From positions 310,001-374,000 of the forward strand of contig NZ_CP014796.1 in the NCBI RefSeq assembly GCF_001969385.1: a stretch of DNA of 64,000 bases. The letters run 5' to 3'. A program made the position numbers and the translations under genes. Shown here in pieces: positions 959 through 56,752 of this stretch. The notes below the pieces were generated by a model. It was not told the origin of the DNA. It made no database searches and worked only from the letters and a program-made list of their open reading frames with translations. How positions within the stretch are numbered: position 1 is the first letter of the stretch; every line of letters begins with the position of its first letter. This DNA is from Salipiger profundus. Its GTDB lineage: Bacteria; Pseudomonadota; Alphaproteobacteria; Rhodobacterales; Rhodobacteraceae.

Positions 959-1034
959 CTTCTTCTGGCCGAAAATATCCTGGGGGAGTCGCGGCAGCGA
1001 CGGGGGCCGCGCCCCCGGGCGCCCGCAGGGCGCC
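959..1034 (+). repeat. Dispersed intergenic hairpin repeat, copy A
   Basis: Starts with the conserved head CTTCTTCTGGCC, then GAAAATATCC and TGGGGGA. Three perfect hairpins follow: GTCGC/GCGAC with a four-base loop, CGGGGGC/GCCCCCG, and GGCGCCC/GGGCGCC with a GCA loop. It lies between the zinc-ribbon gene and ribB, in the same direction as both. The same head plus hairpins recurs at 14780, 18661, 23141 (inverted), 47222, 53110 (inverted) and 56684. It could end transcription of the upstream gene, although no T-run follows the stems. Confidence 0.8.
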
Positions 1035-1117
1035 ACCACCGCCCCGCGACCCAAAACCACCCTAGCCATTTCGGCCTGCATCTCTTATCTGGCAGGAACG
1101 GTATCAGGAGTGGCGAG

Positions 1118-2242
1118 ATGGCGGATTACGAGAACCCGGGCCAGACCGAGACGGACTGGAAGGCAGCGATTTCCCCGATCGAGGAAATCATCGAGGACGC
1201 GCGCAACGGCCGCATGTTCATCCTCGTCGACCACGAGGATCGCGAGAACGAGGGCGACCTCGTCATTCCCGCGCAGTGGGCCACCCCCGACGCGATCAAT
1301 TTCATGGCCACCTACGGGCGCGGCCTGATCTGCCTGTCGATGACCGCCGAGCGGATCGAGCAGCTCGGGCTCGAGCTCATGTCGACCAACAACTCCTCGC
1401 GGCACGAAACCGCCTTCACCACCTCGATCGAGGCGCGCGAGGGTGTCACCACCGGCATCTCCGCCGCCGACCGGGCGCGCACGATTGCCGTGGCCATCGA
1501 CGCCTCGAAGGGCGCGCAGGACATCGCGACGCCGGGCCACATCTTCCCGCTGCGCGCCAAGGCGGGCGGCGTGCTGGTCCGCGCCGGTCACACCGAGGCC
1601 GCGGTCGATGTCTCCCGGCTGGCCGGTCTCAACAGCGCCGGCGTGATCTGCGAGATCATGAACGACGACGGTTCGATGGCCCGCCTGCCCGAGCTCGTGT
1701 CCTTCGCCCAGAAACACGGCCTCAAGATCGGCACGATCTCCGAGCTGATCGCCTATCGCCGACGCCACGACAATCTCGTGCGGGTCGAGCGCGAGGAAAC
1801 CGTGACCTCGGAATTCGGCGGCGAGTGGCAGATGCGGATCTACTCCGACACCACCCACGGCGACGAGCACATCGCCTTTACCAAGGGCGACCTCGAAACC
1901 GCCGAGCCGGTTCTGGTGCGGATGCATGTGCTCGACCCGATGCTCGACGTGGCGGGCACCGGCCACCCCGGCCGCGCCGACGAGTTCCGGCTGGCGATGC
2001 AGGCGGTCGCCGACGAGGGGCGCGGCGTGGTCGTGCTGCTGCGCGACACGGCGATGAAGCTCGACCCCTCCGAGGGCAGCTCGCCCGGCACGCTTCGGCA
2101 GTATGGCCTCGGCGCGCAGATCCTGTCGTCGCTCGGCCTGTCGCAGCTCGAACTTCTGACCAATTCGCCCACGCCGCGCATCGTGGGCCTCGATGCCTAC
2201 GGTCTCGAGATCGTCGGCACGCGCAAGATCGGAGGTGCCTGA
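1118..2242 (+). CDS. ribB: 3,4-dihydroxy-2-butanone 4-phosphate synthase with degenerate GTP cyclohydrolase II-like domain
   Basis: RibB converts ribulose 5-phosphate to the four-carbon precursor of riboflavin. The N-terminal domain (about residues 20-215) has the acidic metal and substrate motif DHEDRENEGDL, the GLICLSMT strand, NNSSRHETAF and RAGHTEAAVDV. The C-terminal half resembles RibA (LRQYGLGAQIL, then TPRIVGLDAYGLEIVG) but contains none of the zinc-binding cysteines of GTP cyclohydrolase II, so only the DHBP synthase activity is expected. Start chosen at an ATG with AGGAG eight bases upstream. The stop overlaps the ribH start by one base; ribH and nusB follow, an operon usual for this family. 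No FMN riboswitch is visible upstream. Confidence 0.92.
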   Translation: MADYENPGQTETDWKAAISPIEEIIEDARNGRMFILVDHEDRENEGDLVIPAQWATPDAINFMATYGRGLICLSMTAERIEQLGLELMSTNNSSRHETAFTTSIEAREGVTTGISAADRARTIAVAIDASKGAQDIATPGHIFPLRAKAGGVLVRAGHTEAAVDVSRLAGLNSAGVICEIMNDDGSMARLPELVSFAQKHGLKIGTISELIAYRRRHDNLVRVEREETVTSEFGGEWQMRIYSDTTHGDEHIAFTKGDLETAEPVLVRMHVLDPMLDVAGTGHPGRADEFRLAMQAVADEGRGVVVLLRDTAMKLDPSEGSSPGTLRQYGLGAQILSSLGLSQLELLTNSPTPRIVGLDAYGLEIVGTRKIGGA

Positions 2243-2793
2243 TGGCCTCGAACGAAGAGCATTACACCCTGCCCCGGCCGAGCTTCGACAAGCCGGTCAA
2301 GATCCTGATCGTGGTCGCGCCCTACTACAAGCAGATCGCCGAGCAGCTGGTGAAGGGCGCCACGGAGGAGATCGAGGCGGCCGGCGGCTTCCACGAGGTG
2401 ATCGAGGTGCCCGGCGCGCTCGAGGTGCCCTCGGCCATCGGCATCGCCGAACGGCTGTCGAACTTCGACGGCTACGTCGCGCTCGGCTGCGTGATCCGCG
2501 GCGAGACGACCCATTACGACACGGTCTGCAACGACAGCTCGCGCGGCCTGACGCTTCTGGGGCTGCAGGGGCTCTGCATCGGCAACGGCATCCTCACCGT
2601 GGAAAACTACGAGCAGGCCCGCGTCCGGGCCGAGGCGGACGGCCAGAACAAGGGCGGCGGCGCGGCCGCGGCGGCCTTGCATCTGGTCGCGCTGGCCCGT
2701 AGGTGGGGCGGCGCCCGCAAGGGGGTGGGATTCGTTCCTGCCCGCGACGAGTATCAGCTTGCGGGGTCTTCACGAGGAAACGACACCGCATGA
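2242..2793 (+). CDS. ribH: 6,7-dimethyl-8-ribityllumazine synthase
   Basis: Catalyses the penultimate step of riboflavin synthesis, condensing the RibB product with the ribitylamino-pyrimidine. 183 residues. Family motifs are visible: VPGALEVPSAI (substrate phosphate and pyrimidine loop), ALGCVIRGETTHYD with the active-site His, and GILTVENYEQA. The C-terminal helix NKGGGAAAAALHLVALARRW is typical; the last ~25 residues (GARKGVGFVPARDEYQLAGS...) are a tail of the kind found in related Rhodobacteraceae proteins. Start ATG overlaps the ribB stop; the stop overlaps the nusB start by four bases (ATGA), so translation is probably coupled through the operon. Confidence 0.93.
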   Translation: MASNEEHYTLPRPSFDKPVKILIVVAPYYKQIAEQLVKGATEEIEAAGGFHEVIEVPGALEVPSAIGIAERLSNFDGYVALGCVIRGETTHYDTVCNDSSRGLTLLGLQGLCIGNGILTVENYEQARVRAEADGQNKGGGAAAAALHLVALARRWGGARKGVGFVPARDEYQLAGSSRGNDTA

Positions 2794-3281
2794 CCACCCC
2801 GGACACTCCCCCGGCCCCCTCGGGCAATCAGAAGCGTCGGATGAAATCCGCCTCGCGGCTCTACGCGGTGCAGGCGCTCTACCAGATGGAGGTGGGTAAC
2901 CTCACGGTGGAGAAGGTTCAGCACGAGTTCGTCGACCACCGCTTCGGCGCCGAGATCGACGAGGGCATCGAGATGATCGAGGGCGATGTCGACCTCTTCA
3001 GCCGCATCACCTCTTCGGCGGTGAACTGGCAGGCGAAGATCGACCAGATGACCGACCGCGCGCTCGTGGCGAAATGGCCCATCGCGCGGCTCGACCCGAC
3101 GCTGCGCGCGCTCTTCCGCGCCGCCGGCGCCGAGTTGGTCGACAGCGACACGCCGCCGCGCGTGATCATCTCGGAATACGTGGAAGTGACCCGCGCCTTC
3201 TTCCCCGAGGGCCGTGAAGCGAAGTTCGTCAACGCCGTGCTCGACCACATTGCCCGCGAGGCCAAGCCCGAAGCGTTCTGA
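2790..3281 (+). CDS. nusB: Transcription antitermination factor NusB
   Basis: 163 residues, the normal NusB length with a short extended N-terminus. It shows the family start KSASRLYAVQALYQME, the internal helices ending in DRALVAKWPIARLDPTLRALFRAAGAEL, and the closing EYVEVTRAFFPEGREAKFVNAVLDHIARE. NusB, with NusE (S10), binds boxA RNA and supports antitermination on rRNA operons. Third gene of ribB-ribH-nusB, overlapping ribH by four bases. Linkage of nusB to riboflavin genes is common in Proteobacteria. Confidence 0.93.
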   Translation: MTTPDTPPAPSGNQKRRMKSASRLYAVQALYQMEVGNLTVEKVQHEFVDHRFGAEIDEGIEMIEGDVDLFSRITSSAVNWQAKIDQMTDRALVAKWPIARLDPTLRALFRAAGAELVDSDTPPRVIISEYVEVTRAFFPEGREAKFVNAVLDHIAREAKPEAF

Positions 3282-3620
3282 GCTCGGCACGACGCGCCCC
3301 GACGGCGGGGGCGTCCCTGATCGACATGATGGCGTGGATGGCCCCGCGGCCCTTCGGAACATCCGCCACACGCGCAGGCCCGCCAAGGCCGCTGCCGAAG
3401 CCTCTCGCCTCTCGGAGCCGCCGAAGCCTCGCGCCACGCGTGGGGCCGGTTTTCCAAATCCACCGCCCGGCACGCCTGTCGCACGGGCGCCACCGGCGTC
3501 TCATCTTGCCGCAATATTCGAAATACCTGGCCCCGGCGGCACCGGTAGTGTCGGGTTTCAAACCCACAGTCCAGCGCAGGTCACGGCCGGGGCGCGACTG
3601 CCGCGCCCCGGCCGCACCGA
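3282..3620. other. Gene-free stretch between convergent nusB and the efflux operon
   Basis: About 340 bp without a credible gene; the frames that cross it have no family resemblance and poor codon use. The plus-strand end of nusB is followed by a weak GC hairpin (CGCCCCG...CGGGGGCG around 3295-3313). The only strong structure is the 13-bp perfect hairpin at 3584-3614, listed separately. Confidence 0.6.
3584..3614 (-). terminator. Perfect 13-bp hairpin after the outer-membrane efflux gene
   Basis: CGGCCGGGGCGCG at 3584-3596 pairs exactly with CGCGCCCCGGCCG at 3602-3614 around a five-base loop. It starts six bases past the stop codon of the minus-strand gene ending at 3621. No T-run follows on the minus strand, so it may act as an mRNA-stabilising 3' hairpin or a Rho-assisted terminator rather than a classic intrinsic terminator. 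Confidence 0.6.
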
Positions 3621-5003
3621 TCAGCTGCCCTCGGCTTCGGTCGTGACCGCGACCGGCATCGCCCAGCCCTTGCCTGCAGCGACCTGGAGGGTCGCCCAGC
3701 TTGCCGCGAGATTCCGCACGCTCGACGCCAGCGTCAGCCGCGAGTTCGCCAGCGAGCGCTGAACGTCCAGCAGATCGAGCAGCGTCGTGGTGCCGCCGTT
3801 GTAGGTCTCACGCGACAGCGACACGACCCGCTCGTAGGAGTTCACGCTGCGGCGATAGGCCGAGACCGCGCGGCGATTGCGCAGGTAGTCGGTCTGCGCC
3901 GACTGGACCTCTTCGACCGCGCTCAGCACTTCCGATCGCCATGCGAGTTCCGCCTGCTTCGCCTGCGCGACGGCCTGGTCGCGGCTGGCGCGCAGCAGCG
4001 GCTGGCTCAGCACCGGCACCGAAAGCTGCGGTCCGAAGGACCAGCTGCTCACGCCTTCGGTGGCGCTCACCGTGCCGCCGAGGCTGAGCGACGGGTAGAG
4101 CTGCGCCTCGTTCACCCCGATCCGCGCCACGGAGGCGGCAAGGTCGCGCTCGGCGCCGCGCACGTCCGGACGATTGCGCAGCAGGTCCGCCGGAACGCCG
4201 ACCCCGGCGCTGCCGGAGGGGCTGGGCTGTGCCGCGCCGCGCTGAAGCCGGCTCTCGATGCTCTGCACCGGCTGGGCCAGCAGGGTGGCGATGGAATAGG
4301 CCGACGCGTAGAAGCCGCTTTCCAGCGAGGGCAGCGACGCACGGCTGTCGTCCAGCGCCGCCTGCGCCTGCGCCTCGTCGAGCGCGGTTGCGGCCCCGGC
4401 CTCGCGCTGGCTCTGCACCAGCGACAGCGTCTCGCGGCGGGTGTCGAGCGTCTGCCGCGTGATCGCCAGCGCGTTCTGGTAGTAACGCAGGTCGATGTAG
4501 TTCGAGACCAGCGCCGACAGGAAGGCCAGCCGCGCCTCGCCGACGCTCAGCTCGGCCGATTGCAGCGATGCCAGCGCGGCCTCGCGCGAGCGGCGCTCGC
4601 CCCCGAAGAGATCGAACACGTAGGACGGGCTGAACCCTCCGGTGGTCGTCGTGGTGGTGCCATCGACGGTCTCGCCTCCGGCGCGCGTGATCTGTCCCGA
4701 CGCCCCGCCCGAGATCTGCGCCGGCAGCCCCGTCGCGCGGGCGGCGGCCTGTGCTTCGGCGACGCGGGCAATGGCGGTCCGGATATTGAGGTTCTGGTCC
4801 AGCCCGGTCTGCACGAGGCTGTTGAGCGTTGCATCGTTGAAGGCACGCCACCAGTATTGCTCGGAGGCCTTGCCGATCGGTGCGGCCGCGCCCTCGGCGA
4901 AGCTGACCGCAAGCGTCTGTTTCGGCGCCTCGTAATCCGGACCGACGGTGCAGGCGGCGAGGGCCGTCGTCGCGGTCAGGAGTGCCAGTTTTATCTTTTT
5001 CAT
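3621..5003 (-). CDS. Outer-membrane efflux lipoprotein, TolC/OprM (NodT) family
   Basis: 460 residues, full length for an RND-type outer-membrane factor. The signal peptide ends in a lipobox (LAAC, acylated Cys about residue 17) followed by TVGPDYEAP, the usual start of NodT-family lipoproteins. Two OEP repeats follow, with the characteristic [32 protein letters not shown] segment near residues 280-310. It would form the trimeric exit duct of a tripartite pump. It is the last and only intact gene of the minus-strand efflux operon, overlapping the permease remnant by four bases. With permease and adaptor broken it may serve another pump or be on its way to loss. Confidence 0.9.
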
Positions 5004-5815
5004 CTGCTCGTTACTCTCTCTTCGGCCCAGCGGACCAGTCGCATGATGAGCGCGTAGAGCGCTGGCACCATGAAGATGCCTGTGAATGTCGACGCCACCA
5101 TGCCTCCGATCACGCCCGTGCCGGTGGCATTCTGTGCCGCAGCGCCGGCCCCGCTCGCGGTGGCCAGCGGAAGGACGCCAAGGATGAATGTCGACGCGGT
5201 CATCAGGATGGGGCGCAGGCGAAGCCGTGCTGCCTCGATCGCCGCCTCTGCGATGCTGCGCCCCTGAGCGCGCAAATCCTCGGCAATTTCGACGATAAGG
5301 ATCGCATTCCGGGCTGCAAGTCCGATCGTGGTGAGCATCCCAACCTTGAAGTAAACGTCGTTAGATTGGCCACACACCCAGGCCGTCAGGAGCGCTCTGA
5401 GCACCCTCACGGGAACCGCGAGCATCACCGAGAACGGGATTGACCAGCTTTCGTAGAGCGCCGCAAGGGCGAGGAAGATCACGAATGCGGAAATCGCGTA
5501 GAGCCAGGGCGCCTGATCGCCCGACTGCCGCTCCTGGTAGCTGATGCCGGTCCAGGCGGCGCCCTGCGACGAGCGCGCGGTCATGTAGATCATGCCCTCG
5601 AGCCCGGTCATGGCGTCCTCGATGACCCGCGTCACCGAGTTCTCGACGGCCTCGGCGGTGGCGCCGGAATAGGTCGCCGAGACCCGCACCGCGGTCGGCG
5701 CGATGTCGGGATATTGCGCGACGGGCAGCGACACGAAGGACCATGCCCCGGCAAGCATGGTCATCAGGGCGAGCACCCAGGCGAAGACGGGGCGGCGGAT
5801 GAAGAACAGGCCCAT
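5000..5815 (-). pseudogene. RND efflux permease (AcrB/MexB-like) with large in-frame internal deletion
   Basis: Intact family members are about 1040 residues; this frame has 271. The first ~75 residues match the AcrB N-terminus ([11 protein letters not shown], then [23 protein letters not shown]). The sequence then jumps directly to the C-terminal region ([64 protein letters not shown]). Roughly 770 residues are missing, including the porter and docking domains and the central TM helices with the proton-relay Asp pair of TM4, so it cannot be a working pump. Start is the ATG five bases after the adaptor stop; the end overlaps the outer-membrane gene by four bases. Confidence 0.9.
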
Positions 5816-5820
5816 CGGGT

Positions 5821-7026
5821 TTACTCTGCGTCCTGCGCCGCGCCGTCGTCGGGGGCGGCCCCGGCTCTGCCGCCGCCTGTTTCCTCCCCGTCGTCCTGCC
5901 GCACCTCCGTCACGACGCGGTCGTCCGAGATGGAGACCGGCACCGTCGTGACCTGCGCCCCGTCGGCAAGGTTGCTGAGCCCGTCCATGACGAGCGCCTC
6001 GCCGTCCTCGACACCGTCGGTGACGATCCACGCGTTCCGGTAGCTGCCCTGGCTCGTCAGCCTGCGCTGCTGCGCCGTGCCGTCGACGGCGACAAGGGCC
6101 GTGAGCGTGCCGTCCGCCGCGCGCGAGGTCGCCCCCTGCGGCACCAGCACCGCCGTGGTCGTGCCAAGCGTCATGTCCACCCGCGGGAACTGCCCCGGCA
6201 GCACCCGCCGCTCGGGGTTGTCGAACTGCAGGCGCAGCTCGGTGGTGCCGGTTGTGGTCGAGACGTTGACGCTGGGCGAGACCATGCGGCCCTCGCCCGA
6301 GTAGGTCTCGCCGGTCTCGAGCTGCAGCGTGATCCCCAGCCGGTCGCCGCGCTGCAACGTCCCGGTGTCGATCTTCTCGCGGATCTGGCCGATGCGGCGG
6401 CTCGTTTCCTCGACATCGACGTAGATCGGATCAAGCCGCGTGACGGTGGTCAGCGCGTCGGTCTGGTTCTCCGTCACCAGCGCGCCGACCGAGACGGTGG
6501 GCACCGAAGGGAAGCTCGCGATCGGGCTGGTGATCTCGGTGCGGTCCAGATCGAGCTGCGCCACCTACAGCGCGGCGCGTGCCCCGCTCAGATCCGCCTG
6601 CGCCTGCTTCAGCGACACCCGGGCCGAGGCGAGTTCTTCCTGGGTCACGCCAGTGCCCAGCAGGCGTTGGTAGCGGTCGACGGTCTCCTGCGCGGTATCG
6701 ACCGAGGCCTGCGCCAGGTCGACCTCGGCCGAGGCGGAGGTGACCTCGGCGCGGTAGGTCTGATCCTCGATGCGGAAGAGCACGTCACCGGCCTAGAGCG
6801 AACGCCCGGCGTCATAGACGATCTCGGCGATCATGCCGCCGACGCGCGGGCAGATGTCGACCTGCTGATAAGCCACCGCGCGGCCCAGGACCGTCTTGGT
6901 GAAGGGCACCTGCGCGGTCTCGAGCGTGACCACGCCGACCTCGATCGCCCGCCCCGCCGGCCCCATGCCGCCCGGCGCCTGCGCCCGGCCGGCATGGGGC
7001 TGCGTCACCAGAAAAAGGGTCGCCAT
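5821..7026 (-). pseudogene. RND periplasmic adaptor (HlyD/AcrA family) interrupted by two in-frame TAG codons
   Basis: One minus-strand frame of 402 codons encodes a complete membrane-fusion protein except for TAG at 6793-6795 (codon 78) and 6565-6567 (codon 154). Each sits where glutamine (CAG) is expected: AGRSL-stop-AGDVLFRIE in the lipoyl half-motif and ARAAL-stop-VAQLDLDRTEITSPI at the end of the hairpin. Downstream, [15 protein letters not shown] and the beta-barrel [11 protein letters not shown] are normal. A signal-like N-terminus (MATLFLVTQPHAGRAQA) is present but lacks a charged start; the frame stays open further upstream without an ATG. With the permease also deleted, loss of function is likelier than amber readthrough. 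Confidence 0.88.
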
Positions 7027-7345
7027 GATGGCAGACAGGAACGGGAACGGGCGAGTGGCGGAAAATCTGCGTATGAAACCTCACGAAGGGCGCGCGGCGA
7101 ACGGTCTGGAGGGCATTGAACGGCGCCGCGCCGGATTTCCGTCGAAGCCATGGAGAAAAAATGTAAGAAAGATGCGACATTTCACGACCGGCGGCACCGC
7201 ACACCTGACCGTGCGACGCCACGTCGCTTGATTTCGCCGCACAGACCTTCCATCTTTTACAGAGACGAAGGATCGGTTGCGGTCGATCCTTGTCAAACCG
7301 CGTTGCTGCAATACCATTTGTTGCACAGCAAGGAGACAGGAAGAC
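7027..7345. other. Divergent intergenic region between efflux pseudogenes and a small membrane-protein gene
   Basis: About 320 bp with no credible gene. It must hold the promoters of both the minus-strand efflux operon and the plus-strand gene at 7346. The stretch 7145-7260 is less GC-rich than its surroundings. It contains an 8-8-8 inverted repeat at 7268-7291 and TTGCTGCAA at about 7302-7310 near TTGTTGCACAGCAA, which could be operator material. No regulator gene lies next to it. Confidence 0.5.
7268..7291. promoter_or_regulatory. Inverted repeat AAGGATCG-N8-CGATCCTT
   Basis: A perfect 8-bp inverted repeat with an eight-base spacer, 54 bp before the start codon at 7346. Size and position fit a dimeric repressor operator or a 5'-UTR hairpin. 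It has no T-run, and I cannot assign a regulator family. Confidence 0.4.
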
Positions 7346-7690
7346 ATGAACATGCCCCGCCTCGTGCGCCTCTACATCCTGCAAACCCTCATGGGCTTCG
7401 GCCTTTCCACGGTCTTCGTGGGACTGCTGCTCTGGCAGAACGTGGCGAACCTCTACCACCTGGTGACCAGCACCGATGCCGGTTTGCTGGCAGTGTTCCT
7501 GCTCTGGCTGTTCAATGGCCTTGTGTTCGCCGGCGCACAGTTCGCCATCTCGATCATGCGGATGCAGGACACGGACACCCCGCCGTCGGGCGGCAAACGC
7601 GCGCCCACTGTCACGATGCAGCCGGTGCCCGTGCGCGTCGCCGCCGAGCGTCCGAAGGACCGCGCACATCTGCTTCACCGCCGCCGCTGA
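7346..7690 (+). CDS. Small two-helix inner-membrane protein, function unknown
   Basis: 114 residues. Start ATG chosen because AGGAG lies about ten bases upstream; longer frames add a Cys/Arg-rich stretch that looks untranslated. Two hydrophobic segments (about residues 12-34, LMGFGLSTVFVGLLLW, and 46-66, GLLAVFLLWLFNGLVFAGAQF) are joined by a short polar loop. The C-terminal ~45 residues are hydrophilic and basic (DTPPSGGKRAP... ending RPKDRAHLLHRRR), likely cytoplasmic. Standing alone with its own intrinsic terminator at 7718, it looks like an independently transcribed gene. No family recognised. Confidence 0.7.
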   Translation: MNMPRLVRLYILQTLMGFGLSTVFVGLLLWQNVANLYHLVTSTDAGLLAVFLLWLFNGLVFAGAQFAISIMRMQDTDTPPSGGKRAPTVTMQPVPVRVAAERPKDRAHLLHRRR

Positions 7691-7717
7691 CCGGACGGCG
7701 CCCGACCAGACACGACA

Positions 7718-7741
7718 AAGCGCCCCGCGGGGCGCTTTTTT
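7718..7741 (+). terminator. Rho-independent terminator
   Basis: AAGCGCCCC pairs with GGGGCGCTT around a two-base GC turn and is followed by TTTT, 27 bp after the stop of the small membrane-protein gene. This is the most classic intrinsic terminator in the window. Confidence 0.9.
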
Positions 7742-7822
7742 CATGCCGGGCGGACCGGCTGTCGTCTGTCTTGGAAAAGCGGCGGGAACCGCGGCGACCG
7801 TGTGGTTATCTCATTCCCGAGG

Positions 7823-7838
7823 ACCTGTATATACAGGT
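7823..7838. promoter_or_regulatory. Perfect 16-bp palindrome ACCTGTATATACAGGT
   Basis: Lies in the 303-bp gap between the terminator at 7741 and the end of the minus-strand gene at 7994. The arms ACCTGTA/TACAGGT equal those of the classical lux box, but the spacer here is two bases instead of six, so it is not a standard LuxR site. It also differs from the E. coli LexA box (CTGT-N8-ACAG) by spacer. No start codon follows within a normal distance, so what it controls, if anything, is unclear. Nothing else recognisable is in this gap. Confidence 0.4.
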
Positions 7839-7993
7839 GGGCGCCAGGTAACCGGACCAGGGCCCGGACAGAGCCAGCTCCCTCGGAATTGCTTAAGGCC
7901 ACCGGAATGCAACCGTGTCACGGGAAGCGCAGAAACCCGCCTGACCCGCGAGATAAGATGCGTGCAGGCCCACGGCAAGGGGCCTTGCACGAT

Positions 7994-10192: not shown

Positions 10193-10205
10193 ATACGATT
10201 GCAGC

Positions 10206-14779: not shown

Positions 14780-14851
14780 CTTCTTCTCTTTCCAAATACC
14801 CTCGGGGGTGAATGCGGCGCAGCCGCAGAGGGGGCAGCGCCCCCTCCCCCC
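14780..14851 (+). repeat. Dispersed intergenic hairpin repeat, copy B
   Basis: Head CTTCTTCTCTTTCC, AAATACCC, TCGGGGGTGAAT; first hairpin GCGGC-GCA-GCCGC; second hairpin GGGGGC-AGC-GCCCCC followed by TCCCCCC. Starts 22 bp after the znuA stop and lies 160 bp before the next gene, both on the same strand. Confidence 0.85.
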
Positions 14852-18660: not shown

Positions 18661-18798
18661 CTTCTTCGGTTGGAAAATACCTCGGGGTGAATGCCGCCAA
18701 CGGCGGCAGAGGGGCAGCGCCCCTCCCCCCGGCGCCGCCAAAGGCGGCGCAAATCCCCTACCACGGCGCCGCCACAGGCGGCGCAAATCCTCTGCCCC
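18661..18798 (+). repeat. Dispersed intergenic hairpin repeat, copy C, with 34-bp tandem tail
   Basis: Head CTTCTTCGGTTGG, AAAATACC, TCGGGGTGAAT; first hairpin GCCGCC-AAC-GGCGGC; second hairpin AGGGGC-AGC-GCCCCT (to 18730). Then two near-identical 34-bp units (18731-18764 and 18765-18798), each with an 8-bp hairpin GCGCCGCC/GGCGGCGC and AAATCC. A further stem CGTCGCC/GGCGACG follows at about 18801-18818, just past the 3' end of the minus-strand PLP-enzyme gene. Lies between pxpB (5' end) and that gene. Confidence 0.85.
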
Positions 18799-23115: not shown

Positions 23116-23140
23116 GGCGGCGGTCCTTTGGTTGCAGCAG

Positions 23141-23187
23141 GACCGGGGCGCTGCCCCGGACCCCGGGATATTTCGGGCCAGAAGAAG
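23141..23187 (-). repeat. Dispersed intergenic hairpin repeat, copy D (short, inverted)
   Basis: Read on the minus strand: CTTCTTCTGGCCC, GAAATATCCC, GGGG, then a 7-bp hairpin CCGGGGC/GCCCCGG. The first, variable hairpin of the other copies is missing, so this is the shortest version. It lies in the 107-bp gap between two minus-strand genes. Confidence 0.8.
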
Positions 23188-47166: not shown

Positions 47167-47221
47167 TCATGCAGCACCCCACACCCGAAGCCCTCCCCGG
47201 CCGCGATGGCCGGCCTGCCTC

Positions 47222-47338
47222 CGGCGGGGATATTTTGGGCCAGAAGAAACATCGGCGCGACACCAGGCCTTCTTCTGGCAGGAAATATCCCGGGGGTGAA
47301 TTGGCCGCAGGCCAAGAGGGGGCAGCGCCCCCTCCCCC
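47222..47338. repeat. Dispersed intergenic hairpin repeat, copy E, head-to-head pair
   Basis: At 47222-47248 lies an inverted head (GGGGATATTTTGGGCCAGAAGAA) and at 47269-47338 a complete plus-strand copy: CTTCTTCTGGCAGG, AAATATCC, CGGGGGTGAAT, hairpin GGCC-GCA-GGCC, hairpin GGGGGC-AGC-GCCCCC, TCCCCC. The two heads face each other and could pair into a long cruciform. It sits inside the urt operon between urtB and urtC. Confidence 0.88.

Positions 47339-48657: not shown

Positions 48658-48661
<4 letters not shown>
47420..48661 (+). CDS. urtC: Urea ABC transporter permease UrtC
   Basis: 413 residues, about ten TM helices. GGAGGC precedes the ATG; an earlier frame start falls in the repeat. Conserved parts: LCLMLVAVAMDVVWGYTGILSLGHMAFFGLGGYMIGMWLMY, FRSRVTGVYLSILTQAMTLALSLYLFQNE, GFKSVIRGIRDNE-type loop (GSVIRGIRDNESRVRFLGY) and LYYPQAGIINPNEVAPIASIYLAVWVAIGGRG. 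Pairs with UrtB in the membrane. Ends with an Asp/Glu/Lys-rich tail; overlaps urtD by four bases. Confidence 0.95.
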
Positions 48662-49398
<737 letters not shown>

Positions 49399-49410
49399 GA
49401 GGACCCCAAC

Positions 49411-50106: not shown

Positions 50107-50428
50107 GGCCCGCCACCCCGGTTTATCGCTAACTTGCCGCGACGCGGCGAAATTTCCTCTTGCCCAAATCGCTTTGAGCGCCAATCCTCCCGCTTGGGAG
50201 ATGTGTTCACATGCTGCCAGCGGCAGAGAGTTCGAGACACGGCGCAAAGCCCCTGCCGACCGGCACGGGTCCTGTTCCGGCAGCGGTGCGCCGCGCCGCG
50301 TCCGATATCGTCTCGCCTCGTGATTTTCCGCCCCGACCGTCTCACGCCCGCCCGCTGCCCAGCGCATCGGTCGCACGCGGCGCCGGGGTGTTTCATGCCT
50401 TACGAGTGAAGACCCACAGGAGGACACC
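50107..50428. other. Gene-free stretch between the urt and solute-transport operons
   Basis: About 320 bp without a credible gene. A small perfect hairpin GCCGCG-A-CGCGGC at about 50135-50147 follows urtE and runs into AAATTT; it may contribute to transcription end. GGAGG stands at 50418-50424 before the next start codon. No operator palindrome could be picked by eye. Confidence 0.5.
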
Positions 50429-51778
50429 ATGAAGACGACCAGACCGCCGCTGCTGTGCAGTGCGGCGATGGCACTCGCGCTTACCGCGAGCGCCGTCCAC
50501 GCCGAGACCATCCGCTTCTGGACGACGGAGGAGCAACCCGAACGGCTGGCGCGGCAGGAAACCATGGCGGAAGCCTTCGCCAAGGCCACAGGCACCGACG
50601 TCGAGGTGATCCCGGTCACCGAGTCCGAGCTCGGCACCCGGGCGACCGCGGCCTATGCCGCCGGTGACCTGCCCGACGTGATCTACCACCCGCTGTCGCT
50701 CGCCCTGCCCTGGGCAGAGGCCGGCATCCTCGACCCGGACGCCGCGACCGACGTGATCGAGGATCTCGGCGCCGACAGCTTCGCGTCGGGCGCGCTCGAG
50801 ATGGCAAGCTTCGACGGCGGCTATGCCTCGGTGCCCGCCGACGGCTGGACCCAGATGATCGTCTACCGCAAGGACCTGTTCGACGAGAACGGCCTCGAGC
50901 CGCCGACCACCTACGCCGCGGTCGAGGCGGCGATCGACGCGCTGCACAACCCGCCCGAGATGTATGGCTTCGTCGCCGCCACCAAGGTCGACGAGGCCTT
51001 CATGAGCCAGGTACTCGAGCATGTCTTCCTTGCCAACGACGTGTCGCCGGTGGGCCCGGACGGGGTGATGGCGCTCGACGAGGCGAAGACCACCGAGGTG
51101 CTGGAGTTCTACAAGACGCTCGCCGACGCCTCGCCTCCGGGCGATCTCTACTGGGACCAGTCGCGCACGCTCTACTTCGCGGGCGACGCGGCGATGATCA
51201 TCTGGTCGCCCTTCATCCTCGACGAGCTCGCCGGCCTGCGCGACAGCGCGCCGCCGACGATCACCGACGATCCGACCTCGACCGAGCTGGCCTCGAAGAC
51301 CGGAATCGTCACCAACTTCGCCGGCCCCTCGAACCCCGACGGCGCAGCCTGGGCCTCGATCAACATGTTCGGGATCACCGGCGACGCCTCGACCGACGCT
51401 GCGATCGACTTCGTGAAATACTCGATGGACGAGGGCTACGTGGACACGCTGGCCATCGCGCCCGAGGGCAAGTTCCCGATCCGCCGGGGCAACGGCGACG
51501 ATCCGGAGTTCTTCGTCAAGAAGTGGGCCGAGCTTCCGGTCGGCGTTGACCGCAAGGCCCCGCTGGGCGAGCTCTACCCGCAGGAGATGATCGACGAGAT
51601 CGTCGGCGGGCTCGACGTGGCGCAACGCTGGGGCGTCGCCGACGGGCAGCTCGCGCTTGCCTCGAAGATGGTGAACAGCCAGGTCATCAACCGCGTCGTG
51701 CGCGAATACATCGACGGCCAGGTCGACGCCGCCGCCGCGGTGGCCGAGATGAACGAAGAACTGGCCGCCATCCAGTAG
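50429..51778 (+). CDS. ABC transporter extracellular solute-binding protein (family 1, sugar-like)
   Basis: 449 residues. Signal peptide MKTTRPPLLCSAAMALALTASAVHAE. Mature part begins TIRFWTTEEQPERLARQETMAEAFAKATGTDVEVIPV, as in the maltose/oligosaccharide class; YAAGDLPDVIYHPLSLALPWAEAGILDPD and AAMIIWSPFILDELAGL are typical. The ligand is not readable. Context (glycosidase and ugp/mal-type ATPase in the same operon) points to a glycosylated small solute. First gene of a five-gene operon; a strong hairpin follows. Confidence 0.88.
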   Translation: MKTTRPPLLCSAAMALALTASAVHAETIRFWTTEEQPERLARQETMAEAFAKATGTDVEVIPVTESELGTRATAAYAAGDLPDVIYHPLSLALPWAEAGILDPDAATDVIEDLGADSFASGALEMASFDGGYASVPADGWTQMIVYRKDLFDENGLEPPTTYAAVEAAIDALHNPPEMYGFVAATKVDEAFMSQVLEHVFLANDVSPVGPDGVMALDEAKTTEVLEFYKTLADASPPGDLYWDQSRTLYFAGDAAMIIWSPFILDELAGLRDSAPPTITDDPTSTELASKTGIVTNFAGPSNPDGAAWASINMFGITGDASTDAAIDFVKYSMDEGYVDTLAIAPEGKFPIRRGNGDDPEFFVKKWAELPVGVDRKAPLGELYPQEMIDEIVGGLDVAQRWGVADGQLALASKMVNSQVINRVVREYIDGQVDAAAAVAEMNEELAAIQ

Positions 51779-51787
51779 GACGGCCCC

Positions 51788-51816
51788 GCCCCTCTCCCGC
51801 CCTGGCGGAGAGGGGC
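51788..51816 (+). promoter_or_regulatory. Intercistronic hairpin after the solute-binding protein gene
   Basis: GCCCCTCTC-(C)-CGCC at 51788-51801 pairs with GGCGGAGAGGGGC at 51804-51816, one bulged base, ten bases after the stop codon. Same position and probable role as the hairpin behind urtA: to stabilise the binding-protein mRNA or limit readthrough into permease genes. Confidence 0.65.
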
Positions 51817-51838
51817 ACCGCTTGCGGAGACAGCGCTG

Positions 51839-53080
51839 ATGAGCGACGCGACCCCACCTACCGGCACCGGACCGCTCGCCCGCCGCGAGGCGCGGCTGGC
51901 GTGGGGGCTGCTCTTTCCGACGCTGGCGGCGGTGTCCCTTGTGGTGATCCTGCCGCTGCTCGCGGTGTTCTGGATCAGCTTCAAGCCCGTGGGGCTCGCC
52001 GACCTGCGACCGCCTACCCCCATCGTGCGCGAGGACATCCGCGGCGACCTAGAGGCGCCCGGAGACGAGGCCACGCTGCGCTACCGGCTGCGCAACTCCT
52101 CGCAGGACCAGCCGATCCTCGGGGTGACGCTCAGCGACGACTGGCCCGCCGGGCTCCGGCCCGGTGAGCTCGATCCGCGCTGCGAGATCGCCGAGACCCG
52201 CCTTTACTGCGATTTCGGCGACTGGGAGGGCGGCATGCGCGAGCAGATCCGCATCCCGGTGACCGCCGATGCCGGTTACTTCGAGGCAGCGCCCGCCACC
52301 GACAGCGCGCCGGTGATGACCGGGCAGGCCCGCAACATCCTCACGAATTTCGACTTCACGCTGGAGAACTTCGCGCGGGTCTTCGATGGCCGCGAGTTCT
52401 GGGCGGTGCTCGGGGTCACGGTGTTCTACACCGTCTTCGGCACGCTCGGCGCGCTGGTCATGGGGCTGTTCGCCGCGATGCTGCTGAACAAGTCGTTCCG
52501 TGGCCAGGGCATCCTGCGCGGGCTCTACCTGTTTCCCTACGTGGCGCCGGTGATCGCCGTGGCCTTCGCCTGGATCCTGCTCTTCGATCCGTTCTCGGGC
52601 TCGGCCAATGCGCTGCTGATCCAGATGGGCGTGAGCGAACAGGCCATCAACTTCTTCGGCGAGCGGCCACTGGCGCTGATCATGGTCACGCTGTTCGAGA
52701 TCTGGCGCTACTTCCCGCTGTCGTTCCTGTTCATCCTCGCCCGGATGCAGTCGATCGACCACGACATGTACGAGGCCGCCGACATGGACGGGGCCTCGCC
52801 GTTCCAGAAGTTCTGGTACCTGTCGCTGCCGCAGCTCGTGGGCATCCTGTCGGTGCTGTTCCTGCTGCGCTTCATCTGGACGTTCAACAAGTTCGACGAC
52901 ATCTTCCTGCTGACGGGCGGCAATGCCGGCACGCGGGTGCTGACGGTGAACGTCTACGAGCAGGCCTTCGCGCTGTCGAACATCGGTGCCGGTGCCGCCG
53001 TGGCGGTGGTGATCTTCTGCTGCCTGCTGCTGTTCTCGGTGCTGTTCTTCCGCCTGATGAGCCGGGAGGAAGGGCTGTGA
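51839..53080 (+). CDS. ABC transporter permease (MalF/UgpA-like) with periplasmic insert
   Basis: 413 residues. TM1 (about 18-45) is followed by a ~105-residue soluble stretch (residues about 50-160, with ATLRYRLRNSSQDQPILGVTLSDDWPAGL, CEIAETRLYCDFGDW) that resembles a small beta domain with two Cys. Then the regular six-helix core with the EAA loop DMYEAADMDGASPFQKFWYLSLPQL. The insert recalls the P2 loop of MalF in position. Pairs with the permease at 53187. Confidence 0.9.
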   Translation: MSDATPPTGTGPLARREARLAWGLLFPTLAAVSLVVILPLLAVFWISFKPVGLADLRPPTPIVREDIRGDLEAPGDEATLRYRLRNSSQDQPILGVTLSDDWPAGLRPGELDPRCEIAETRLYCDFGDWEGGMREQIRIPVTADAGYFEAAPATDSAPVMTGQARNILTNFDFTLENFARVFDGREFWAVLGVTVFYTVFGTLGALVMGLFAAMLLNKSFRGQGILRGLYLFPYVAPVIAVAFAWILLFDPFSGSANALLIQMGVSEQAINFFGERPLALIMVTLFEIWRYFPLSFLFILARMQSIDHDMYEAADMDGASPFQKFWYLSLPQLVGILSVLFLLRFIWTFNKFDDIFLLTGGNAGTRVLTVNVYEQAFALSNIGAGAAVAVVIFCCLLLFSVLFFRLMSREEGL

Positions 53081-53109
53081 TGGTGTCGCTTCTGGCCGGT
53101 GGAGATTTC

Positions 53110-53173
53110 GGGGGCGCTGCCCCCGCGCGCGCCGGGGCGCGCTTCCCCCGAGGTATTTTCGAACCAGAGAAGT
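53110..53173 (-). repeat. Dispersed intergenic hairpin repeat, copy F (inverted)
   Basis: Minus-strand reading: GACTTCTCTGGTTCG, AAAATACC, TCGGGGG, hairpin GCGCGCC-CCG-GCGCGC, then GGGGGC-AGC-GCCCCC. It fills the ~105-bp gap between two permease genes of one operon and is oriented against transcription; 13 bp remain before the next start codon. Confidence 0.82.
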
Positions 53174-53186
53174 CCTGGAGGGCGCG

Positions 53187-54407
53187 ATGAGGGCGGTGCG
53201 TTTCGGATATGTCACCGGGCCGGTGCTGGGGGCGCTGTGGTGCCTTGTCGTGGCGACGACCGTCGCCGTGGCGATGAGCCTGGCCACCGGCGAGGCGTTC
53301 CGCCCGACGCTATGGGGCGCGCTTGTCGCCGGTGCGGCGCTGGGGCTGGCGTGCCTGCGCCCCGGCGGGCGGCGCGCGCCGATATGGCCGGTGGCGGTGG
53401 CGGCGGTGATCCTCGCGGGCTCGGCCGCGGGCTTCGGCCCGCTGGCGGTGGGCGGCGACACCGGCGTGCTGGCGGCCTGGATCGGTTGGCTGGGCGCGGT
53501 GGGCTTCACCGCGCTGGGACTTTGGAAGATGCTCGACGAATGCCGCCCGGGCCGGCTTACGCGGCACGAGTTCGAGGAGGCGGTGATCCGTTTCCTGACC
53601 GGGTTCGGCTACATCTTCTTCACCGCCATCGTGCTGATCCCCTTTTACGTCATGGTGATGACCAGCCTGAAGAACCAGTCCGAGCTGATGGCCAACCCGC
53701 TGGATTTCACCATCGACCTGAGCCAGGGCTGGGGACTTCTGCGCAGCTACGCGGAGCTGATGACCGACTACGATTTCGGGCGTTATCTCTGGACCAGCTT
53801 CTACGTCTCGGTGCTGACGGTGCTCATCACCCTCGCCTTCGCGATCCCCGGCGCCTATTCCGTGGCCCGGCTGCGGTTCCGGGGGCAGGCGCTTTTCGCC
53901 CGCTCGATCCTGCTCATCTACATGGTGCCGATGATCGTTCTGGCGCTGCCGATCTACATCGGCTTTTCCATGACGGGGCTGCGCAACACCATCTTCGGCA
54001 TCGTGATGATCTACCCGGTGACCACGATCCCGGTGGCACTCTACATGCTGCAGGGCTACTTCCGCGGCCTGCCCGCCGAGGTCGAGGAGGCCGGGCTCAT
54101 GGACGGACTCAGCCGGCTCAAGGTGATCTGGAAGATCACCCTGCCGCTGTCTCTGCCGGCGCTGGCGAGCGTGTCGCTCTACGTCTTCATGATCGCCTGG
54201 AACGAGTTCCTGCTGGCGTTCATGCTGCTCGACGACCCTTCGAAATTCACGCTCACGCGGGGGATCGCCTCGCTCAACTCTTCCGAGGTGCCACGGCAGC
54301 ACCTGATGGCAGGCTCGGTGATCGCCACCGTGCCGATCATGGTGCTGTTCCTGGGCCTCGAACGCTTCATGACCAAGGGGCTGACCGCCGGCTCCGTGAA
54401 AGGATGA
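53187..54407 (+). CDS. ABC transporter permease (MalG/UgpE-like) with extra N-terminal helices
   Basis: 406 residues against about 280 for the family. The first ~130 residues contain about four additional hydrophobic helices (VTGPVLGALWCLVVATTVAVAMSL, LWGALVAGAALGLACL, WPVAVAAVILAGSAAGF, WIGWLGAVGFTALGLW). The standard permease then begins (FLTGFGYIFFTAIVLIPFYVMVMTSLKNQSEL), with the EAA loop EEAGLMDGLSRLKVIWKITLPLSLPAL. ATG is preceded by GGAGG. It overlaps the glycosidase gene by four bases. Confidence 0.9.
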   Translation: MRAVRFGYVTGPVLGALWCLVVATTVAVAMSLATGEAFRPTLWGALVAGAALGLACLRPGGRRAPIWPVAVAAVILAGSAAGFGPLAVGGDTGVLAAWIGWLGAVGFTALGLWKMLDECRPGRLTRHEFEEAVIRFLTGFGYIFFTAIVLIPFYVMVMTSLKNQSELMANPLDFTIDLSQGWGLLRSYAELMTDYDFGRYLWTSFYVSVLTVLITLAFAIPGAYSVARLRFRGQALFARSILLIYMVPMIVLALPIYIGFSMTGLRNTIFGIVMIYPVTTIPVALYMLQGYFRGLPAEVEEAGLMDGLSRLKVIWKITLPLSLPALASVSLYVFMIAWNEFLLAFMLLDDPSKFTLTRGIASLNSSEVPRQHLMAGSVIATVPIMVLFLGLERFMTKGLTAGSVKG

Positions 54408-55648
54408 CGATGCACGACGACACCGCCCGCGCCATCCTGCGCGGCAACGACCGCACGACCGACGGGGGCGCCTACACGGTGCCAACCGACATGCTATACC
54501 CGTTCCAGTGGAACTGGGACAGCGCCTTTGCCGCGTGGGGGTTCTCGACCTTCGACACCGACCGGGCGTGGCGCGAGCTCGAGACGCTCTTTGCCGCGCA
54601 ATGGGCCGACGGCATGGTGCCGCACATGGTGTTCCACGACGCAGCGCCAGGCTACTTTCCCGGCCCCGACGTCTGGGGCGCGGGGGGCGAGGTGCCGACC
54701 TCGGGGATCAGCCAGCCGCCGGTGGCCGCGACCATGGCGCGGCTGGTCTGGGAGGCCGACCCGGAGGCCGGGCGCACCCGCATGGCGGCGCTCTACCCGA
54801 AGCTGCTGGCGTGGCACCGCTGGTGGATGGAGACCCGCTGCGGCTCGGGCGCGGTGGCGGTCTGCCACCCCTGGGAATCCGGCCGAGACAACTGCCCGGA
54901 CTGGGACGTGGGCCTGGCCGGCGTCGACGGCTCTGGCGCGGGCGACTACGCCCGGCGCGACGAGGCGCAGGTGGACGGCGCGCAGCGACCCACCAAACAG
55001 GAATACGACCGCTACCTCGCGCTGGTGCGCTTCGGCCGCGACTGCGGCTGGGACCAGGCGACGATCGTGGCCGACTGCCCCTTCTACATGGCCGACCCGG
55101 GCATGACCTTCATCCTGATCCGCGCCCATGACGACCTTGCCGCCATGGGCCGGTCGCTGGGGCAGGACGTGACCGAGCTCGAGGGCTGGGCCGCCGCCCT
55201 GCGCGACGGCGTGGACAGCCTGTGGAACCCCGAGCTCGGCGCCTGGGACGCGAAGGACCTGCGCAGCGGGGCATGGGCCGGCATCGTGGGATCCGGGGCG
55301 CTGCTCTGCTGGCTCGCCGGCTGCGAGCGTCCCGAGATGGAGGCGCACCTCGCGCGCATGTGGGACGCGGTGACCTACGGGCTGCCGTCTTCGGACCCCG
55401 AGGCGCCGAGCTTCGAGCGCAAGCGCTACTGGCGCGGGCCGGTCTGGCCGCAGATGAACGCGCTGATCGCGCTCGGCTTCCTGCGGGCGGGGCGCGACTG
55501 GGACGAGGCACGGCTGCGCGAGGAGACCGCCACGCTGATCGAGACATCCGGCTTCCGCGAGTATTTCGATCCGATCGACGCCGCGCCCTGCGGCGGTGAC
55601 AGTTTCACCTGGACGGCGGCGGTCTGGCTGGCCTGGGCGGGGAGGTAG
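54404..55648 (+). CDS. GH63-like (alpha/alpha)6-barrel glycosidase, mannosyl-/glucosylglycerate hydrolase-type
   Basis: 414 residues. MLYPFQWNWDSAFAAWGFSTFDTDRAWRELETLFAAQWADGMVPHMVFH is the signature of the trehalase/GH63 clan branch including mannosylglycerate and glucosylglycerate hydrolases; GDYARRDEAQVDG, CHPWESGRDNCPDWD (candidate catalytic acid) and RYWRGPVWPQMNALIALGFLR follow. No signal peptide, so cytosolic: it would split the imported glycoside. Start is the first of two close ATGs, overlapping the permease stop. The exact substrate is inference from family and operon. Confidence 0.82.
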   Translation: MTMHDDTARAILRGNDRTTDGGAYTVPTDMLYPFQWNWDSAFAAWGFSTFDTDRAWRELETLFAAQWADGMVPHMVFHDAAPGYFPGPDVWGAGGEVPTSGISQPPVAATMARLVWEADPEAGRTRMAALYPKLLAWHRWWMETRCGSGAVAVCHPWESGRDNCPDWDVGLAGVDGSGAGDYARRDEAQVDGAQRPTKQEYDRYLALVRFGRDCGWDQATIVADCPFYMADPGMTFILIRAHDDLAAMGRSLGQDVTELEGWAAALRDGVDSLWNPELGAWDAKDLRSGAWAGIVGSGALLCWLAGCERPEMEAHLARMWDAVTYGLPSSDPEAPSFERKRYWRGPVWPQMNALIALGFLRAGRDWDEARLREETATLIETSGFREYFDPIDAAPCGGDSFTWTAAVWLAWAGR

Positions 55649-55654
55649 AGGACC

Positions 55655-56680
55655 ATGGCAAGCATCGAACTCAGGGCCGTCGAGAAGTGGTATGGCGAGG
55701 TGCAGGTCATCAAGGGCGTCGACCTCGCCATCGAGGAAGGCGAGTTCATCATCTTCGTCGGCCCCTCGGGCTGCGGGAAATCCACGCTGCTGCGGATGAT
55801 CGCCGGGCTGGAAGAGACCTCGCGCGGGCAGATCGTGATCGGTGAGCGTGACGCCACCGCCGAGCCGCCCGCCCGGCGCGGGCTCGCCATGGTGTTCCAG
55901 AGCTATGCGCTCTACCCGCACATGTCGGTGCGCGACAACATGGGCTTCTCGCTCAAGGCCGCCGGGGTGAAGAGGCCCGAGATGGACGCCAAGGTCGACG
56001 AGGCCGCCCGGGTCCTGAAACTCGAGCCTCTTCTCGACCGTCGCCCGAAGGATCTCAGCGGCGGCCAGCGCCAGCGGGTCGCCATCGGACGCTCGATCGT
56101 GCGCGACCCCACCGCCTTCCTCTTCGACGAGCCGCTCTCGAACCTCGACGCCGCGCTCCGGGTCGAGATGCGCTACGAGATCGCCAAGCTGCACCAGGCC
56201 CTGCAATCGACGATGATCTACGTCACCCATGACCAGGTCGAGGCCATGACCCTCGCCGACCGGATCGTCGTGCTCGAGGCCGGTCGGGTCAGCCAGGTGG
56301 GCTCCCCGCGCGAGCTCTACGAGCGCCCCGGAAACCTCTTCGTGGCGCAGTTCATCGGCAGCCCGAAGATGAACGTCTTCCCCGCGGACACCCCCGGTCT
56401 GCGGCTCGAGACAACGCTGCCACCGGAGGCCGCGCATTTCGGCATCCGCCCCGAGCACATCAGCCTTGGCGACCCCGGCAGCGGCCAGATCGACGGCACC
56501 GTCGACATCGTCGAATATCTCGGCGCCGACACCTATGTCATCGCCGACTGCGGTGCCGCCGGCAAGCTCACGGTGCGCACCCATGACGACGCGGGTCTCG
56601 CCCCGGGCCGGACCTGCGGCCTCGCCTTCGAACCCGGCCGGACGCATCTCTTCGACGAGGCCGGCCTCGCGCTGCGCTAG
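55655..56680 (+). CDS. ABC transporter ATP-binding protein, MalK/UgpC family
   Basis: 341 residues. Walker A GPSGCGKST (about 37-45), Q-loop MVFQSYALYPHMSV, signature LSGGQRQRVAIGRSI, Walker B AFLFDEPLSNLD, H-loop YVTHDQ. The C-terminal regulatory OB-type domain (about 240-340; FIGSPKMNVFPAD, HFGIRPEHISLGD) places it with sugar and polyol importers. Last gene of the operon, seven bases after the glycosidase. Confidence 0.93.
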   Translation: MASIELRAVEKWYGEVQVIKGVDLAIEEGEFIIFVGPSGCGKSTLLRMIAGLEETSRGQIVIGERDATAEPPARRGLAMVFQSYALYPHMSVRDNMGFSLKAAGVKRPEMDAKVDEAARVLKLEPLLDRRPKDLSGGQRQRVAIGRSIVRDPTAFLFDEPLSNLDAALRVEMRYEIAKLHQALQSTMIYVTHDQVEAMTLADRIVVLEAGRVSQVGSPRELYERPGNLFVAQFIGSPKMNVFPADTPGLRLETTLPPEAAHFGIRPEHISLGDPGSGQIDGTVDIVEYLGADTYVIADCGAAGKLTVRTHDDAGLAPGRTCGLAFEPGRTHLFDEAGLALR

Positions 56681-56683
56681 CGG

Positions 56684-56752
56684 CTTCTTCTGGCCAAGAA
56701 TATTCCCGGGGTGAATTGGCGCGGCACGCGCCAAGAGGGGCAGCGCCCCTCC
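56684..56752 (+). repeat. Dispersed intergenic hairpin repeat, copy G
   Basis: Head CTTCTTCTGGCC, AAGAATATTCC, CGGGGTGAAT; hairpin GGCGCG-GCA-CGCGCC; hairpin AGGGGC-AGC-GCCCCT; TCC. Another stem CCCGTGCGC/GCGCATGGG follows at about 56754-56776. It starts three bases after the ATPase stop codon and lies before selD. Confidence 0.86.

Follow-up and report, generated by a model that had tools for sequence, protein, structure and literature searches.

A REP-like gene-end element of Salipiger profundus with a bipartite head box spelled differently among congeners

Introduction

Repetitive extragenic palindromic sequences and the bacterial interspersed mosaic elements built from them (REP/BIME) in enterobacteria, together with the REPs and REP doublets forming hairpins (REPINs) that are linked to REP-associated tyrosine transposases (RAYTs), are short, high-copy, palindromic sequences that lie at gene ends and between operon genes, form inverted pairs and avoid divergent gaps. 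Between operon genes, REP elements act in 3′-end protection or partial termination. Here, we describe a dispersed intergenic element found in 64,000 nucleotides (nt) of Salipiger profundus (Rhodobacteraceae; contig NZ_CP014796.1, positions 310,001 to 374,000; hereafter the window), and we follow it through the genome, the genus and the order. It resembles them in its short length, high copy number, palindromes, position, inverted pairs and avoidance of divergent gaps. Unlike them, it has a non-palindromic bipartite box that is conserved around two free bases, and unlike REP/BIME and REPINs, it has old fixed sites and changes its spelling, or dialect, at orthologous sites. It also differs from RAYT-linked REPs and REPINs in that 17 of 20 congeners have no Y1 transposase.

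Intrinsic terminators share its GC-rich hairpins just past stop codons, whereas our element has no U-run after its tail hairpins when read head first, has an extra conserved box and is accepted in either orientation. Neisseriaceae uptake sequences, as portrayed in the excerpted part of PMC3630211, likewise show species dialects of a short box and inverted pairs at gene ends; our element differs from them in running to tens rather than thousands of copies, in being almost never intragenic, and in its structured tails and bipartite 20-bp box. Within Rhodobacterales, HRC-8-4 and uORFC-8-2 are also structured intergenic motifs confined to this order, which according to the excerpted part of PMC8632094 each occur mostly at a single location (between cco operons and upstream of cysS, respectively), unlike the dispersed element studied here. 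Topic and motif-letter searches of the open-licence literature, with subscription papers outside their scope, did not find a description of the element. The excerpts of PMC3630211, PMC8632094 and PMC12306157 do not describe it, and word look-ups in PMC3733652, PMC2267715 and PMC2817692 gave no match to Rhodobacter-type names.

Results

Architecture and genome-wide abundance

From its head, the element reads Y T TCTTCTGGC N N N AAATATCC, which is followed by a C/G-run and one of several tails. The bipartite box is TCTTCTGGC-N3-AAATATCC, and the type-1 head is CTTCTTCTGGCC-N2-AAATATCC. There are at least five tail classes, assigned by purpose-made regular expressions with the "?" and "o" classes retained in counts: class A is AGTC-stem-GAC-GGGGGCAGCGCCCCC, class B is TGAAT-stem-AGAGGGGCAGCGCCCCT, classes C and E are single hairpins and class D is CCGCCGGAGGC. 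The original prediction, made from the letters of the window, had taken two hairpins as the defining feature. This view is not supported: some tails have one hairpin, and what stays constant is the bipartite box of the head, the first half of which differs among species.

We searched the window's genome (G000, 5.42 Mb) for the strict head, allowing at most three mismatches, and obtained 71 matches, 40 forward and 31 reverse, compared to zero for a reversed-pattern control. This count lies far above chance. According to a simple purpose-made gene caller, 70 of the 71 are intergenic and one lies inside an open reading frame call, in support of the predicted dispersed, intergenic occurrence in both orientations; the element is genuine and extends well past the window. 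Copies lay between two genes sharing the element's sense in 21 cases, two of the opposite sense in 26, convergent genes in 22 and divergent genes in one. Tandem orientation was without bias (21 vs 26, P = 0.56), and divergent gaps were avoided (1/70 copies vs 10/30 window gaps of at least 60 nt; Fisher P = 1.5 × 10−5). For the 69 copies with a gene ending towards the element, taken as 65 nt long, the median distance from the stop codon was 18 nt, and 56 lay within 60 nt. Across the 71 copies, head positions 2–10 were invariant and 14–21 nearly so except for position 20 (C in 59, T in 12), with part of this invariance built in by the pattern search; positions 12–13 varied freely.

A second head family, with AAATACCTC, also occurs in this genome (13 of 36 places listed, by eye). 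Head-to-head pairs within 200 nt number eight, all mutually facing, and each combines one D tail with one other tail as judged by eye. We rejected a replication-linked signal, as 31 heads run with and 37 against the leading strand (68 on contig 1). For this comparison, the origin was roughly placed near 1.33 Mb from the GC skew of the fetched loci; head counts drop mildly away from it (13, 22, 13, 12 and 8 per 0.5-Mb bin).

Conservation at orthologous sites

Copies in G000 and three congeners (G039, G066 and G159) were matched by both flanks, excluding many-to-many ortholog pairs. In the 28 one-to-one pairs between G000 and G066, the two core halves were identical at 251/252 and 221/224 positions (472/476 together), compared to 17/56 in the spacer and 210/420 in the 15 nt before the head. 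The G000–G039 and G039–G066 pairs agree with this division between core and spacer. At old sites, the box is nearly frozen around two saturated spacer bases. Head type at each tested site was identical in G000, G039 and G066, apart from small spelling variants, and tail class was kept in 22/26 (G000–G039), 23/28 (G000–G066) and 38/39 (G039–G066) pairs; an alternative rule for tail classes shifts one pair in each of the first two comparisons (21/26 and 22/28).

As an unbiased sample, we used 60-kb stretches around the window's region, chosen regardless of heads. Every head that could be aligned on both flanks was kept on the same strand, with sites overlapping between comparisons: 8/8 from G039 to G066 (nine heads), 9/9 from G066 to G039, 4/4 from G000 to each of G039 and G066 (eight heads in G000), and 3/3 from each of G000, G039 and G066 to G159.

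Dialects of the head box

The spelling of the box was established for 12 of the 20 congeneric genomes and takes four forms. The canonical TCTTCTGGC box has 34–109 copies in seven of the 20 genomes and 8 or fewer in the others. G159 has no TCTTCTGGC boxes; it has 54 that read TCCTTTGAC, and 18 of the other 19 genomes lack this spelling, the remaining one (G307) having two one-mismatch copies. G292 and G293 use TCCATTGGC, exact at 11/12 and 10/11 of the places listed and with one mismatch at the rest. G296 and G297 use TCTTCTAGG, with 83/90 exact and 5 one-mismatch copies in the former and 32 exact and 5 one-mismatch copies among the 37 listed of 44 in the latter. The canonical box was found at none of the places listed for these last four genomes. 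Dialects are near-uniform within each genome examined; spacer bases are diverse within each genome, so the heads can hardly have been copied in as blocks.

At orthologous sites, the dialect has changed and the tail class has mostly been retained. Tail class was kept at 13/20 cross-dialect sites shared with G000, with about 4 expected; by genome, it was kept at 5/8 sites in G159 (1.1 expected), 6/6 in G292 (1.8) and 2/3 in G296 (0.8). At one D-tail site (L045, L127, L422, L443), each of four genomes has a different dialect.

Copies in the window

The seven places named in the original prediction were read on both strands, and all seven hold the element. They contain eight heads, since the 47.2-kb place is a head-to-head pair: 959+, 14780+, 18661+, 23187−, 47249−, 47269+, 53172− and 56684+. 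The 23.1-kb and 53.1-kb places and one half of the 47.2-kb pair are on the minus strand. The copies are as follows.

959..1016, plus strand: copy 1, type-1 head at 959–981 and class A tail (two hairpins), 8 nt past the stop of a gene called at 660–950
14780..14850, plus strand: copy 2, type-2 head (CTTCTTCTCTTTCC + AAATACCCTC) and class B tail, three-way junction fold with z −3.0
18661..18730, plus strand: copy 3, variant head (CTTCTTCGGTTGGA + AAATACCTC) and class B tail, fold z −0.7
23140..23187, minus strand: copy 4, type-1 head at 23187–23165 and single-hairpin tail, flanked by two minus-strand genes, kept in place in G039 and G066
47217..47249, minus strand: copy 5a, type-1 head and class D tail, left half of the urtB–urtC head-to-head pair, kept in place in G039, G066 and G159
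47250..47268, no strand: loop that separates the heads of copies 5a and 5b, as seen in the sequence and the fold
47269..47338, plus strand: copy 5b, type-1 head and class B tail, forming the right half of the pair and likewise kept in G039, G066 and G159
53110..53172, minus strand: copy 6, type-2 head (CTTCTCTGGTTCGA + AAATACCTC) and hairpin tail, between two ATP-binding cassette (ABC) permease-like genes, kept with the same head type in G039 and G066 and with the G159 dialect in G159
56684..56751, plus strand: copy 7, type-1 head and class B tail, 3 nt past the stop of a gene called at 55655–56680, at a synteny breakpoint

The shared head had been predicted for all of these places. The CTTCTTCTGGCC kind is present in five of the eight (959, 23187−, 47249−, 47269 and 56684), and the other three (14780, 18661 and 53172−) have related heads, type 2 and variants, followed by AAATACC(C/T)TC. 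The G(G)GGGTGAAT that the original prediction had counted as part of the head is limited to four of the eight (14780, 18661, 47269 and 56684) and belongs to one tail class; elsewhere, the tail is of class A (959), a single hairpin (23187−), CCGCCGGAGGC (47249−) or begins with GGGGGAAGCGCGC (53172−). In G159, both heads of the 47.2-kb pair read TTTCCTTTGACC.

The prediction that copies lie inside operons is supported: urtB and urtC, which flank the 47.2-kb pair, both score above the NCBIfam cut-off, and the genes flanking the 53.1-kb copy resemble sugar ABC permeases with scores below cut-offs. At window positions 56680–57338, the genes to the left and right of the 56.7-kb copy are widely separated in both G039 and G066, and each of them has an element there. 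The breakpoint looks as if a rearrangement had used the repeats.

Covariation, matched G-runs and folds

For the covariation test, stem-1 arms were cut by anchors rather than by complementarity, and 3′ arms were swapped among copies 10,000 times. In class A (40 distinct stems from seven genomes, with only 7 distinct 5′ arms), stem 1 averaged 3.90 of 4 Watson–Crick pairs compared to 2.49 after swapping; none of the 10,000 swaps scored as high, and 36/40 stems were fully paired. In class B (15 stems, 6 distinct 5′ arms), the average was 3.93 compared to 2.16, with 15/15 paired. For G000 alone, 12/12 class A stems were paired and class B gave P = 0.055 (5 stems). Pair counting agrees, with 97.2% and 99.2% paired cells in two class A alignments of 11 and 9 distinct tails. 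Their covariation scores were 0.299 and 0.353 vs 0.084 and 0.110 for shuffled alignments, with 0/500 shuffles as high, though shuffles alone are no proof of covariation because the copies are related; the number of pairs changed on both sides was not unusual in the first alignment (188/500) and only mildly unusual in the second (23/500). Changes at orthologous sites add to the evidence for stem 1: at 47.2 kb, the arms are GCGCGCC/GGCGCGC in G039 and GCGAGCC/GGCTCGC in G159. The predicted variation of the first stem with pairing kept holds where a stem 1 exists. Stem 2 had no variation in either class A alignment and hardly varies in its letters; covariation is shown for stem 1 only. The length of the stem-2 G-run equals that of the head G-run in 90% of 213 copies, vs 45% after shuffling (r = 0.86). 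Between orthologs, in overlapping pairs, these runs were unchanged in 69 cases, changed concordantly in 7, on one side in 14 and in opposite directions in none.

RNA folds of single copies are weaker evidence. Of nine folded stretches, two are conspicuous, the copy at 14780 with z −3.0 and the 47.2-kb pair with z −3.2; the other seven range from −0.45 to −2.1. The pair folds into a long helix broken at the spacer bases, and 0/200 shuffles were as good. When class B copies are folded, the run in the head forms pairs with a distal C-run. Head first, no U-run follows the tail hairpins; in the other orientation, the hairpins are followed by GGGATATTT, and in head-to-head pairs a U-rich YUUCUUCU follows the loop.

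G039 and G066 have a second head system (L185–L190), in which GGGG tails go with CTTCTCTGGTTC + AAATACCTC and D tails with CTTCTCTTCGTC + AAATACTCC. The two heads of a pair differ and are not complementary. We rejected a long head–head helix as the cause of head conservation because the two heads of type-2 pairs in these genomes are different. CCSGGG before the head is weakly conserved at −6 to −1 but was also discarded as a terminator arm, since many single copies lack a partner arm.

Some loci have unusual arrangements. At L207 (G039) and L257 (G066), the whole element occurs three times in direct repeat, about 120–145 nt apart and in one orientation. At L054, about 1501–1650 (G000:C1 about 1192548), near-identical hairpin units (GTGCGGGGGCTGGCCCCCGC + ATTCCTG) are arrayed in tandem directly after the head. 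On two contigs of named genomes (L309 and L289), the D tail CCCCGCCGGAGG is fused to its own complement; at L309, the result is a perfect hairpin with a T-run after it, a possible link between D tails and terminators.

Spread and comparison with known families

TCTTCTGGC boxes were found in 82/292 genomes of an order-level sample (40/112 genera), with 0 in each of the controls. Among the matches listed (80 of at least 119 stretches), the D-tail box occurs in many named Rhodobacterales records with many different heads, and a few records are metagenome-assembled genomes with other or vague labels; the arms of D-tail head-to-head pairs listed are complementary in several and not in others. In a class-level sample, the D-tail box was found in G000 and in 2/285 genomes of other families, once each and with one mismatch; we took these as chance and rejected spread outside the family. 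The class A element was matched by twelve plasmid records. On an Antarctobacter plasmid, it is flanked by genes for an AAA-family ATPase and a ParB-domain protein, and in a Ruegeria pomeroyi record by aroA and trmB; a Paracoccus denitrificans record lists no gene at the match.

A known RNA family was rejected, as no Rfam match at the copies was above threshold. In Rfam 15, only three tRNAs and 6S RNA (7782–7938, minus strand; 48.9 bits, threshold 46.4) were above the gathering threshold in the window, and in 18 loci searched at E ≤ 1, copies were overlapped by two weak matches (E = 0.88 and 0.42), both far below threshold. Away from the element, L054:2614–2749 matched Rickettsia sRNA47 (41.2 bits, threshold 60; E = 3 × 10−7). 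PF01797, the Y1/RAYT transposase domain, has no match in G000 and is found in 3 of the 20 congeners, and we rejected a RAYT origin. A phage origin was rejected because the 147-nt pair had no match in 50,697 phage records. The original prediction had named transposase-linked mobility as a case that would overturn it; testable copies are in place, and the window genome has no Y1 transposase.

Discussion

With a probability of roughly 0.55, we interpret these copies as a vertically inherited, REP/BIME-like gene-end element whose hairpins lie at mRNA 3′ ends and whose box is read on DNA by a putative factor of shifting specificity. In the broad sense of a repeated, extragenic, palindromic, many-copy sequence, it resembles REP/BIME by its 71 strict heads, 70 of them intergenic, with hairpin tails, and by its place at gene 3′ ends away from divergent promoters (1/70 divergent; 56/69 within 60 nt of a stop). 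It would consist of two modules, head and tail, inherited vertically through the Rhodobacter family. The GC-rich tail hairpins would act in RNA, whichever strand is transcribed, as brakes on 3′–5′ decay and aids to termination, after a gene or between operon genes. This role is suggested by position and kept pairing: hairpins in either orientation, after stops and inside operons such as urtB–urtC, fit 3′-end protection or partial termination. The head would be a 20-bp bipartite box in which a 9-bp dialect half and a AAATATCC half that hardly varies lie at a fixed distance. A putative trans-acting factor, with a specificity that drifted together with its sites, would read this box on double-stranded DNA. 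We infer both the factor and this joint drift. That a box which is not palindromic shows no preferred orientation speaks for its being read on double-stranded DNA, and constraint at fixed sites combined with dialect change at orthologous sites argues for a trans-acting partner of shifting specificity.

A stronger version, which we put forward tentatively and regard as somewhat doubtful, is that the head is the address code of an undescribed Rhodobacteraceae DNA-reading system that marks gene ends. Each genome would use a single dialect or a small number of them, and the specificity of the reader would have shifted jointly with tens to a hundred old, scattered sites, several times in one genus.

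Several observations weigh against the vertically inherited, factor-read element. Dialects are spelled out for 12 of the 20 congeners, the rest being G294, G300–G304, G306 and G307, and G294 shows almost no boxes. G297 keeps tail class with G000 at 0/3 sites (0.6 expected), and G296 and G297, which share a dialect, keep it at 4/8 (1.7 expected, P = 0.05); the 20 cross-dialect pairs include head-to-head partners of one locus, so independent loci are fewer. The ortholog pairs were picked for having a head in both genomes. In the unbiased sample, the 58.5-kb stretch of G159 has 3 heads compared to 9 in each of G039 and G066. A type-2 element accompanies the left gene at 56.7 kb in these two genomes, whereas G159 has no visible element at that gene; gains or losses therefore occur on longer times. 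The 53.1-kb type-2 site has a type-1-like G159 box in G159, so head classes are not kept everywhere. Finally, we infer, rather than observe, both the reader and the effect in RNA.

A miniature mobile repeat, either a REP/REPIN or a miniature inverted-repeat transposable element, could instead have been spread by a transposase that recognizes the box, with the dialects as successive families expanded in different lineages. The high copy number, REPIN-like head-to-head pairs, shared tail subfamilies and tandem arrays would suit such an origin. We consider it unlikely, and it is already strained by the absence of loss or gain at the both-flank testable heads in the unbiased stretches of four genomes. 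Spacer bases are not common to copies, heads change where tail class mostly stays, Y1 transposases are missing from G000 and 16 other congeners (other transposase families were not searched for), and there is no phage match. Plain transcription terminators are another improbable alternative, in which hairpins followed by U-rich YUUCUUCU or AUAUUU resemble each other through dispersal and terminator constraints, with no specific reader. Proximity to stop codons (median 18 nt, for an element of 65 nt), the strong helix of the 47.2-kb pair and the avoidance of divergent gaps are all expected of terminators. Head-first copies have no U-run after the tail hairpins, however, many single copies begin 1–50 nt past a stop and lack a hairpin ahead of the pyrimidine tract, and copies lie within operons; terminators also leave the frozen letters around free spacer bases and the genome-wide dialects unexplained.

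Concerted evolution by gene conversion or template switching among copies, again with no reader, would explain near-uniform heads within a genome and matched G-runs, and quasi-palindromes are prone to template switching. Contiguous conversion tracts would nonetheless erase the diversity that is seen in the spacer between the conserved halves, and sites keep their head type among G000, G039 and G066 and mostly their tail class, which makes this explanation very improbable. We give as little credence to a DNA uptake sequence, by which a species would recognize its own DNA for import in its own dialect, despite the dialects, inverted pairs and gene-end position that the excerpted PMC3630211 reports for Neisseriaceae. 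According to the same excerpts, uptake sequences are often intragenic and reach thousands of copies in some dialects. A sequence of this kind would be expected in hundreds to thousands of copies, inside as well as between genes, whereas 70 of our 71 heads are intergenic, the seven genomes using the canonical box have 34–109 copies, and the long tails have a conserved structure of their own.

Should a factor indeed read the box, then a much-studied family that includes phototrophs, denitrifiers and marine roseobacters has a genome-wide system that marks gene ends. With the dialects found inside one genus, it would then be possible to test directly how a DNA-reading factor co-evolves with dozens of sites. 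The more modest reading, of vertically kept REP-like hairpins with covariation at orthologous sites, would still supply missing 3′-end annotation for these genomes and show that REP-like repeats need not be mobile.

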